Positions 12,107 to 14,368 of a DNA stretch of 64,000 nt are shown here, one piece after another. Below the pieces are notes generated by a model that was not told the DNA's origin, did not search any database, and saw nothing but the letters and a program-made list of their open reading frames with translations. Location of the stretch: NCBI GenBank assembly GCA_013178275.1, contig JABLWZ010000011.1, positions 1 through 64,000 of the forward strand, written 5' to 3'. A program made the position numbers and the translations under genes. Every line of letters begins with the position of its first letter. Position 1 is the stretch's first letter. Origin of the DNA: Bacillota bacterium. Its GTDB lineage: Bacteria > Bacillota > Ch66 > Ch109.

Positions 12107-12415
12107 ATGATGGCAGACCAGGCGAAGGTCCAGGAAGTATTCAGTGACGAGGTGTTCGTAAAAAACCTGTTGGCCCTGGAAACCCCGGAAGAGGTCCAGG
12201 CGGCGCTGCAGAAAAAGGGTGTAGACCTGACGGTGGAAGATATCGTGAAGATAAGGGATTTGATCGCCAAAAAACAAAACGCTGGAGAACTCAGCGATGA
12301 AGACCTTGAAGGTGTGGCCGGCGGCACATTTAACGAATTTGTCGGTGAGATTATAATAGCGACGGGAGAATATGTTAGCAGTATCGGCAAAATTATTTCT
12401 GATTATATATGGTAA
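12107..12415 (+). CDS. Nif11-like leader RiPP precursor peptide 1
   Basis: VFSDEVFVKNLLALETPEEVQAALQKKGVDLTVEDIVKI leader, ELSDEDLEGVAGG cleavage motif, core TFNEFVGEIIIATGEYVSSIGKIISDYIW. Confidence 0.92.
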   Translation: MMADQAKVQEVFSDEVFVKNLLALETPEEVQAALQKKGVDLTVEDIVKIRDLIAKKQNAGELSDEDLEGVAGGTFNEFVGEIIIATGEYVSSIGKIISDYIW

Positions 12416-12508
12416 GCCAAATATCCACGGACATTCTTTCAACCAGCGAAGTATTTCAGTTAGCCCGGAAACGAGAAAAACCGGGATTCACACTTGAAAG
12501 GAGAGAAG

Positions 12509-12817
12509 ATGATGGCAGACCAGGCGAAGATACAGGAAGTATTCAGCGACGAGGCGTTCGTAAAGAATCTATTAGTCATGGAAACCCCGGAAGAGGTCCA
12601 GGAGGCGCTGCAGAAAAAGGGTGTAGACCTGACGGTGGAAGATATCGTGAAGATAAGGGATTTGATCGCCAAAAAACAAAACGCTGGAGAACTCAGCGAT
12701 GAAGACCTTGAAGGTGTGGCCGGCGGTACAGTAGGCGAATTTATCGGTGATATTATAGTGAGAACGGGAGATGTTATTCAATATATTGGTACCATTGTTT
12801 TTGCAAATCAATGGTAA
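12509..12817 (+). CDS. Nif11-like leader RiPP precursor peptide 2
   Basis: Same leader; LEGVAGG; core TVGEFIGDIIVRTGDVIQYIGTIVFANQW. Confidence 0.92.
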   Translation: MMADQAKIQEVFSDEAFVKNLLVMETPEEVQEALQKKGVDLTVEDIVKIRDLIAKKQNAGELSDEDLEGVAGGTVGEFIGDIIVRTGDVIQYIGTIVFANQW

Positions 12818-12893
12818 GTCAAATATCCACGGACATTACCAGCCGGGTGTTGTTTATACGGATAAGCTTGGCCGGTAAGAAAATCGAATAAAA

Positions 12894-12910
12894 ACTACCC
12901 GGCGGGTAGT
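12894..12910. promoter_or_regulatory. Palindrome ACTACCC-GGC-GGGTAGT, candidate operator (copy 2)
   Basis: Identical to 11978-11994. Confidence 0.55.
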
Positions 12911-12924
12911 ATTCTGTCGAAAAG

Positions 12925-12959
12925 AACCGCTGTACATTTTTGGTATAGCGGTTTTTTTT
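12925..12959 (+). terminator. Hairpin AACCGCT-15 nt-AGCGGTT + T8 (copy 2)
   Basis: Stem preserved relative to copy 1 by an A-T to G-C compensatory pair change. Confidence 0.65.
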
Positions 12960-13024
12960 CTGAGGTGTTTCGGTTGGCCCAGAAATGAGAACGACAGGGT
13001 TCCACATCCGAAAGGAGAGCAGAG

Positions 13025-13333
13025 ATGGCAGACCTGGCGAAGGTCCAGGAGGTATTCGGCGATGAGGCGTTCGTAAAAGACCTGTTGGCCCTGGAGACCC
13101 CGGAAGAGGTCCAGGCGGAGCTGCAGAAGAAGGGTCTGGATTTCACGGTGGAAGACATCGTAAAGGCAAAGGACGCTATCGCCAAAAAACGAGACGCCGG
13201 GGAGGAACTCAGCGACGAAGACCTCGAAGGCGTGGCCGGCGGTGCAGCGGGCGAGTTTGTCGATGAATTAATCATTGGCGCCGGGGCCGTAATTTCTGGT
13301 TTTAGTTACATAATAAATACATATAAGTGGTAA
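13025..13333 (+). CDS. Nif11-like leader RiPP precursor peptide 3
   Basis: Same leader; LEGVAGG; core AAGEFVDELIIGAGAVISGFSYIINTYKW. Confidence 0.92.
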   Translation: MADLAKVQEVFGDEAFVKDLLALETPEEVQAELQKKGLDFTVEDIVKAKDAIAKKRDAGEELSDEDLEGVAGGAAGEFVDELIIGAGAVISGFSYIINTYKW

Positions 13334-13362
13334 ACCAAATATCCATATTGAAAGGAGAGAAG

Positions 13363-13683
13363 ATGATGGAAGACCAGGCGAAGGTCCAGGAGGTATTCAG
13401 CGACGAGGCGTTCGTGAAAAACCTGCTGGCCCTGGAGACCCCGGGAGAGGTCCAGGCGGCGCTGCAGAATAAGGGCGTAGACCTGGCGGTGGAAGATATC
13501 GTGAAGATAAAGGACGTGATCGTCAAAAGACAAAACGCCGGGGGGGAACTCAGCGACGAAGACCTCGAAGGCGTGGCTGGCGGTACATTAGGCGATAAGG
13601 TGGGCGAATCAATCGACATTATTTTTGATAAAATAGGCCAAGCATTTATCCAGCTTGGGGTACAGATTCGTGATAAGTGGTAA
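13363..13683 (+). CDS. Nif11-like leader RiPP precursor peptide 4 (longer core)
   Basis: Same leader; LEGVAGG; core TLGDKVGESIDIIFDKIGQAFIQLGVQIRDKW. Confidence 0.92.
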   Translation: MMEDQAKVQEVFSDEAFVKNLLALETPGEVQAALQNKGVDLAVEDIVKIKDVIVKRQNAGGELSDEDLEGVAGGTLGDKVGESIDIIFDKIGQAFIQLGVQIRDKW

Positions 13684-13713
13684 ACCAGGTATCCATTGAA
13701 AGGAGAGAAGACG

Positions 13714-14022
13714 ATGGCAGACCAGGCGAAGGTCCAGGAGGTATTCAGCGACGAGGTGTTCGTGAAAAACCTGCTGGCCCTGGAAACCCCGGGAGAGGTG
13801 CAGGCGGCGCTGCGGAATAAGGGTCTGGATTTCACGGTGGAAGACATCGTGAAGATAAAGGACGCGGTCGCCAAAAAACAAAACGCCGGAGAGGAACTCA
13901 GCGACGAAGACCTCGAAGGCGTGGCCGGCGGTTCAGTGGGCGAAATTGTCGATGGTGTTATTGTTTTTGCCGGAAACATGATTTCCTTTCTCGGCAATGA
14001 AATCAGCACCCGTAAGTGGTAA
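13714..14022 (+). CDS. Nif11-like leader RiPP precursor peptide 5
   Basis: Same leader; LEGVAGG; core SVGEIVDGVIVFAGNMISFLGNEISTRKW. Confidence 0.92.
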   Translation: MADQAKVQEVFSDEVFVKNLLALETPGEVQAALRNKGLDFTVEDIVKIKDAVAKKQNAGEELSDEDLEGVAGGSVGEIVDGVIVFAGNMISFLGNEISTRKW

Positions 14023-14059
14023 GCTAAATACCCACGGAAATTTGAAAGGAGCGAAGACG

Positions 14060-14368
14060 ATGGCAGACCAGGCGCAAATCCAGGAAGTATTCGGTGACGA
14101 GGCGTTCGTAAAAAATCTGCTGGCCCTGGAGACCCCGGAAGAGGTGCAGGCGGCGCTGCAGAAAAAGGGTGTAGATTTCACGGTGGAAGATATCGTAAAG
14201 GTAAAGGACGCGATCGCTAAAAGGCAAAACGCCGGGGAGGAACTCAGCGATGAAGACCTGGAAGGCGTGGCCGGCGGTTCAGTGGGCGAAATCGTCGATG
14301 GTGTTATTGTTTTCGCGGGAAATACGCTCTCTGCTCTTGGCAACAGTATCAGCACCTACAAGTGGTAA
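14060..14368 (+). CDS. Nif11-like leader RiPP precursor peptide 6
   Basis: Same leader; LEGVAGG; core SVGEIVDGVIVFAGNTLSALGNSISTYKW. Confidence 0.92.
   Translation: MADQAQIQEVFGDEAFVKNLLALETPEEVQAALQKKGVDFTVEDIVKVKDAIAKRQNAGEELSDEDLEGVAGGSVGEIVDGVIVFAGNTLSALGNSISTYKW

Follow-up and report, generated by a model that had tools for sequence, protein, structure and literature searches.

In a 64-kb stretch of Bacillota DNA (contig JABLWZ010000011.1, positions 1 to 64,000; hereafter the window), six tandem genes for Nif11-type precursors of ribosomally synthesized and post-translationally modified peptides (RiPPs) are followed by a gene for a hybrid maturase, in which a predicted prenyltransferase barrel (PT-barrel) is joined to a radical S-adenosylmethionine (SAM)/SPASM half. 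We propose that the radical SAM half acts on the Trp with which every precursor ends, and that the PT-barrel prenylates the peptide, probably at the same Trp. The chemistry is predicted, and we assign this reading a probability of about 0.5. The initial annotation of the stretch described the six peptides and missed that the radical SAM gene is a two-domain hybrid, the first 320 residues of which are a predicted prenyltransferase barrel. It also missed that Lys and Arg replace each other before the Trp, with Arg in relatives most of which have a peptide arginase. The genes concerned are the following.

12107..12415, forward strand: precursor 1, core TFNEFVGEIIIATGEYVSSIGKIISDYIW, Trp codon at 12410-12412 (TIGR03798 Nif11 leader, 34.6 bits, cut-off 32.3)
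12509..12817, forward strand: precursor 2, core TVGEFIGDIIVRTGDVIQYIGTIVFANQW (TIGR03798, 33.1 bits)
13025..13333, forward strand: precursor 3, core AAGEFVDELIIGAGAVISGFSYIINTYKW (TIGR03798, 37 bits)
13363..13683, forward strand: precursor 4, core TLGDKVGESIDIIFDKIGQAFIQLGVQIRDKW, 32 amino acids (TIGR03798, 30.3 bits, just below the cut-off)
13714..14022, forward strand: precursor 5, core SVGEIVDGVIVFAGNMISFLGNEISTRKW (open reading frame and core analysis)
14060..14368, forward strand: precursor 6, core SVGEIVDGVIVFAGNTLSALGNSISTYKW (open reading frame and core analysis)
14433..15389, forward strand: N-terminal part of the hybrid maturase (residues 1-319), a domain predicted to be an aromatic prenyltransferase of the ABBA/PT-barrel type (AlphaFold2, Foldseek, conserved basic residues)
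15390..16442, forward strand: C-terminal half of the hybrid maturase, radical SAM and SPASM, with CX3CX2C at residues 352-359, i.e., nt 15486-15509 (PF04055, 64.8 bits; cluster cysteines)

Each of the six precursor frames is preceded by a GGAG-type ribosome site, and their coordinates and core letters match the initial annotation exactly. The precursors have a leader ending in Gly-Gly and a variable core, and the Nif11-leader model TIGR03798 exceeded its cut-off in three of the four that were scanned, the fourth being 2 bits short. The cores follow GVAGG; five have 29 amino acids and one has 32. Alignment of the six gave a mean pairwise identity of 83% for the leaders and 39% for the cores, which is what a RiPP family commonly shows when it diversifies its products. 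Repeated DNA blocks of 300 nt (12046-12345 / 12448-12747) and 168 nt (11940-12107 / 12856-13023) point to recent duplication of the precursors. Intergenic DNA was copied along with the genes, including a GC hairpin, ACTACCCGGCGGGTAGT, upstream of a T-rich sequence. An Rfam scan of the precursor region gave no match above threshold. Across the diverged cores, Trp is the sole residue kept at the C-terminus. A residue count confirmed it in all six, as well as the KW ending in four; in precursors 1 and 2, it is Ile and Gln that precede the Trp. The cores are hydrophobic, and the recount agreed with the description of the glycines: every one of the five 29-mers has Gly14, and four of them have Gly21. 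Since the six cores contain no Cys, thioether chemistry of the lanthipeptide, sactipeptide or ranthipeptide type was rejected for the window. The absence of Cys, correct for these six, is not a general trait, as 40 of 115 homologous cores contain it.

Loci related to the window (L numbers below) were fetched with the radical SAM protein from genomes of Sporomusaceae, Lachnospiraceae, Selenomonadales, Syntrophomonadaceae, Desulforamulus, Desulfosporosinus and Synergistaceae. Among the precursors with a strong leader match in these loci (E < 1e-10; the window's six included), 38 of 39 terminate in Trp, with cores that are otherwise unrelated. A search with the precursor alignment listed 120 homologues, of which 116 terminate in Trp; the preceding residue is Arg in 95 and Lys in 14. 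The profile used for this search contained the Trp column, and for this reason a leader-only control with the NCBIfam model TIGR03798 was run on 63 genomes. The control found 29 Nif11 precursors, with a Trp end in 18 of 18 on contigs carrying the N-domain/radical SAM genes versus 2 of 11 on other contigs (Fisher p 5.5e-6, for related sequences that are not fully independent). Exactly one Trp is present in 108 of the 115 homologous cores, which are mostly 24-38 residues long and have no other fixed residue. By these comparisons, the terminal Trp is a conserved signal beyond local ancestry. The initial annotation had named this conserved residue a candidate modification site, a view that homologous clusters lacking it were to refute. 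The comparison supports it as the best such candidate; it is kept across Sporomusaceae, Syntrophomonadaceae, Lachnospiraceae, Selenomonadales and Desulforamulus. The Gly14/Gly21 pattern did not generalize in this way. Gly14 occurs in 10 of the 115 homologous cores (five of them the window's own) and Gly21 in 36, and the pattern is local to the window's young paralogues.

Natural variants of the maturase bear on the question of which half is connected with the Trp. The conserved N-domain of ~320 residues is fused to the radical SAM half in the window, L001-L005 and L123-L125, is encoded by a separate gene in Syntrophomonas-type loci, and was not found in the genomes of L008, L010, L015 and L019. 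It is present in 25 of 189 Selenomonadales genomes. In the Selenomonadales loci of clade A (L123-L125), all 14 counted precursors terminate in Trp. In clade B, about 18 fused Selenomonadales proteins are missing exactly the 14 residues that carry CX3CX2C, and a Pfam scan of two of them found no radical SAM domain. These proteins retain almost unchanged E45, W113, E115, D117, R190, R196, D242, K251, K283 and K309 together with the SPASM cysteines. Their precursors are short, Cys-rich Nif11 peptides, only 1 of 34 with a Trp end. In L010, L015 and L019, the precursor nearest the radical SAM gene still terminates in Trp; L010 belongs to the cultured species Desulforamulus aeronauticus. The Trp is thus lost with the CX3CX2C loop and kept without the PT domain, which is suggestive of a terminal Trp that follows the intact radical SAM half. 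The PT domain as the explanation of the terminal Trp is weakened, because the Trp persists without this domain and disappears with it present. In the clade-B loci (L126-L142, L059 and L060), the fusions lie beside several short Nif11 precursors rich in Cys and beside large, separate genes that resemble those of maturases.

The matches of the hybrid to known radical SAM families are confined to its C-terminal half, from about residue 312 onward. The AlphaFold2 model of residues 1-319 (pLDDT 93.7) showed strand pairs alternating with helix pairs. When it was compared with the PDB by Foldseek, all high-probability matches were ABBA/DMATS aromatic prenyltransferases (probability 1.00, TM 0.46-0.60), including AmbP1 (E 5.5e-5), CloQ, EpzP, AmbP3, IptA, CymD and FgaPT2. 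The domain falls into the PT-barrel fold by predicted structure and Foldseek only. An isoprene-synthase-type fold (the trans-prenyl-synthase type of PalQ/ComQ) was rejected, since the model, with its alternating pairs of strands and helices, matched PT-barrels instead. In 81 clade-A proteins, conservation is 94-100% at the basic positions K/R60, R190, R196, K251, K283 and K309 and at several acidic positions, which is compatible with a diphosphate pocket and short of proof. The barrel is probably a working prenyltransferase. Type-1 isopentenyl-diphosphate isomerase (IDI) makes dimethylallyl diphosphate (DMAPP). This isomerase is fused at the C-terminus in 11 of the 120 best homologues of the hybrid maturase, 10 of which carry the NTCCSHP motif; it adjoins the radical SAM gene in L003, L005 and L011, and exceeds NCBIfam cut-offs in L002 and L003. 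Such fusion or adjacency in several lineages argues for catalysis with DMAPP by the PT-barrel.

In the radical SAM half, the cluster cysteines 352, 356, 359, 551, 575, 593, 629, 632, 638, 641 and 659 are 95-100% conserved in the 81 proteins. The half has both CX3CX2C and the SPASM cysteine motif, with PF13186 itself below the cut-off. Among the 25 best matches listed, the nearest curated models are AhbD, PqqE and MftC; of the solved structures, PqqE scores nearest. MftC carries out oxidative decarboxylation. AhbD is also an oxidative decarboxylase (PMC10452713). A proteusin system with a radical SAM epimerase was rejected, as TIGR03793 is far below its cut-off and no epimerase model is among the listed matches. 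A Lys-Trp crosslink of the WgkB/StrB type is unlikely as the general reaction, since neither Lys nor Arg adjoins the Trp in precursors 1 and 2 and in several relatives.

In the pathway that we propose, the six peptides would be the substrates of a single hybrid maturase (14433-16442). Its radical SAM/SPASM half would read and modify the C-terminal Trp, which is somewhat probable. The leading options are an MftC-like oxidative decarboxylation or a bond formed from the Trp alpha or beta carbon. Because the Trp must be the final residue and hardly any neighbouring position is fixed, chemistry on the terminus itself is favoured. A radical step that needs the chain end, for example AhbD/MftC-like oxidative decarboxylation, is therefore the favoured sub-choice, albeit a weak and doubtful one. 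The N-terminal PT-barrel would transfer an isoprenoid to the precursor. The most likely acceptor is the indole of the same Trp, which alone among strong nucleophiles occurs in all cores; for clade A, we propose it tentatively, at slightly less than even odds. Finally, as expected for its family, the NHLM C39 transporter would cut after Gly-Gly and export ~29-residue acidic-hydrophobic lipidated peptides; cleavage and export are highly probable by analogy.

Several results weigh against this reading. The first ~320 residues of the hybrid have no Pfam match and so do not belong by sequence to the described ABBA families (PF11468, PF11991); a PDB profile search likewise gave none. The N-domain was aligned by hhalign with the NphB/Orf2 family, for which the NphB query sequence was checked to be identical to 1zb6 and the Orf2-family alignment was built from NphB's listed homologues. 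The resulting probability of 0.3 was equal to that of the reversed control. Sequence proof of ABBA homology failed at the single-sequence, profile-PDB and profile-profile levels, and a DYS/DFS match to NphB was not significant. The scores of AhbD, PqqE and MftC for the radical SAM half are far under the family cut-offs (PqqE, 87.7 vs 381 bits; MftC, 79.9 vs 265 bits, which places the enzyme outside the mycofactocin system). In the tree, clade B arises once, inside the fused group, and the PT loss takes one or two events; with so few independent events, the tracking of Trp with the radical SAM half is suggestive and not statistical. The PT domain co-occurs with clade-B precursors that lack the terminal Trp, so the acceptor need not be Trp. 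Type-1 IDI was not found in the window's own genome; this enzyme is dispensable where the methylerythritol phosphate (MEP) pathway operates.

It is conceivable, if doubtful, that the PT-barrel prenylates another residue (Lys, ornithine (Orn), Tyr or Cys) or is now a non-catalytic peptide-binding domain. Clade B, which keeps the barrel with Cys-rich precursors mostly devoid of terminal Trp, speaks for this, as does the missing link between sequence profiles and known prenyltransferases; arginine-prenylating PT-barrels exist, and DciF is among the Foldseek matches. However, the IDI association, the near invariance of the six basic pocket residues in clade A, and the position of Trp as the sole nucleophile common to all clade-A cores are against it. 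We consider it unlikely that the terminal Trp serves the radical SAM half (or export or activity) only as a handle for recognition or positioning, with the modification elsewhere in the core. Many RiPP enzymes read a conserved handle, of which the penultimate Lys, Arg or Orn could be part, but the cores share almost no other modifiable residue, and the Trp is gone where the radical SAM loop was deleted, though the same SPASM half remains. The initial annotation had also named the beta-branched stretch a candidate for epimerization and suggested, from the heptad glycines, a helical or self-associating membrane-active peptide. As a rival reading, the radical SAM enzyme would epimerize this stretch and the peptides would act as heptad-glycine membrane helices with the Trp as an anchor. 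This is very improbable. The hydrophobic window cores with Gly14 and Gly21 fit it, but relatives do without the glycine pattern, so both ideas lose support; no epimerase-type model is among the 25 best curated matches listed for the radical SAM half, and the tracking of Trp with the intact loop would be left unexplained. We give hardly any credence to a Trp that is shared by descent only, through recent duplication without functional meaning. The six genes are clear tandem duplicates, as their leader identity indicates, but the comparative data contradict this view: core identity is down to 39%, and relatives in several bacterial families keep only the Trp.

The proposed system resembles several that were described earlier. 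In Paenibacillus alvei, an NHLP precursor has a conserved C-terminal Trp that PalQ prenylates (PMC10853753). The PalQ/PalX system shares with the window a leader-type precursor, the conserved C-terminal Trp and a prenyltransferase gene alongside; PalQ, however, is a stand-alone, isoprene synthase/ComQ-related enzyme, whereas here a PT-barrel is fused to a radical SAM half and combined with Nif11 leaders and NHLM export. The ABBA-type enzyme MppC geranylates a Trp of a Nif11-leader peptide in a leader-dependent manner (PMC12715784). The likeness of MppC/MppE lies in an ABBA-type enzyme (predicted here) and a Nif11-leader peptide with Trp, but the MppC substrate is a thioether ring peptide made by LanM without radical SAM, and the window cores are Cys-free. 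MftC and PqqE are close in curated models and in the intact SPASM cysteines; the differences are the score gap, the fused PT-barrel, and precursors ending in Trp and not in Val-Tyr or Glu/Tyr. The related loci share the arginase and GNAT tool set of Orn-containing or acylated RiPPs with selidamide/landornamide-type Nif11 and NHLP clusters (PMC12703449), whereas in the window neither gene was found and Lys, not Arg, precedes the Trp.

Radical SAM enzymes and prenyltransferases are both valued tools for peptide editing. No description of a fusion of the two, or of this system, was found in the literature searched, in which subscription journals were incompletely covered, so an earlier description is possible. 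The system hints that a Trp at the end of the peptide is the minimal rule for recognition; each cluster supplies several natural substrates, and the natural variants without one or the other half make the domain roles directly testable. A farther-reaching possibility, which we rate as rather unlikely, is that one polypeptide both prenylates and radically remodels the terminal Trp, e.g., by oxidative decarboxylation. Anaerobic Bacillota and Synergistota would then possess a class of lipidated RiPPs that is new, and in one clade the radical half would be dead, leaving an enzyme that still prenylates Cys-rich peptides. If the main reading is right, strict anaerobes of sediments, digesters and the rumen would have an added route to lipidated peptides.

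Among the related loci, most have a gene for a peptide arginase (PF12640) and many have one for a 246-280-residue protein of the GNAT fold. The gene for the latter, previously unassigned, adjoins the split radical SAM gene (L010, 9205-9960; L006, 9037-9777; and equivalents). Combined with the arginase, a GNAT acyltransferase points to products that carry acylated Orn or Lys. Arg precedes the Trp in most precursors of the arginase loci, while in the window, L001, L009 and L058, where no arginase was found, the residue is Lys or neutral. The link mostly holds on long enough contigs; the short contigs L013 and L123 show Arg-Trp with no arginase in view. The position before the Trp may thus favour a primary amine, from Lys or Orn, though precursors 1 and 2 show that this is not universal. 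In Treponema (P0084-P0086), the hybrid enzyme is joined to DUF7005 (PF22541), which is encoded nearby in L002 (4089-4943) and L006 (2335-3351). This domain carries a HECTH / DEVLADC stretch resembling a zinc protease and may be the peptidase of the cluster. NHLP-type precursors with an AYGV(P/R) motif were found in L006 (4511-4903), L017 (4551-4889), L009 (5957-6298) and L010 (6190-6525). Next to them lies another radical SAM enzyme, which is related to TIGR04103, and together they form a distinct RiPP type within the same cluster.

In the window, the order of genes is a MalT-like LuxR regulator, the six precursors, the hybrid maturase gene, and an NHLM export set with a solitary lipoprotein. 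The genes outside the precursor and maturase block are listed below.

9473..11962, forward strand: MalT-like LuxR transcriptional regulator, likely the pathway regulator (PRK04841/MalT, 144 bits; GerE domain)
16485..19001, forward strand: NHLM-type export ABC permease/ATPase, ABC2 (TIGR03797, 885.7 bits, cut-off 709.4)
19067..20224, forward strand: solitary type-1 periplasmic-binding lipoprotein (PF13458, 169 bits)
20234..21481, forward strand: NHLM HlyD-type secretion adaptor (TIGR03794, 328 bits, cut-off 156.2)
21499..23667, forward strand: NHLM C39 peptidase/permease/ATPase, ABC1 (TIGR03796, 1094.7 bits, cut-off 853.3; PF03412)

All three NHLM export components, the C39 ABC1, ABC2 and HlyD proteins, exceed their curated cut-offs. 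A homologue of the regulator with 52% identity is encoded in the related Sporomusaceae locus L001. The lipoprotein gene lies inside the export operon without a permease of its own, and in related loci a PF04392 binding protein follows the radical SAM gene; a binding protein may therefore be a general part of such clusters, possibly for sensing or immunity. Elsewhere in the window, a YD/Rhs-like repeat protein is encoded at 52984-56388, and a 1908-residue protein with dozens of KEGFDKAGF-type repeats at 57876-63602.
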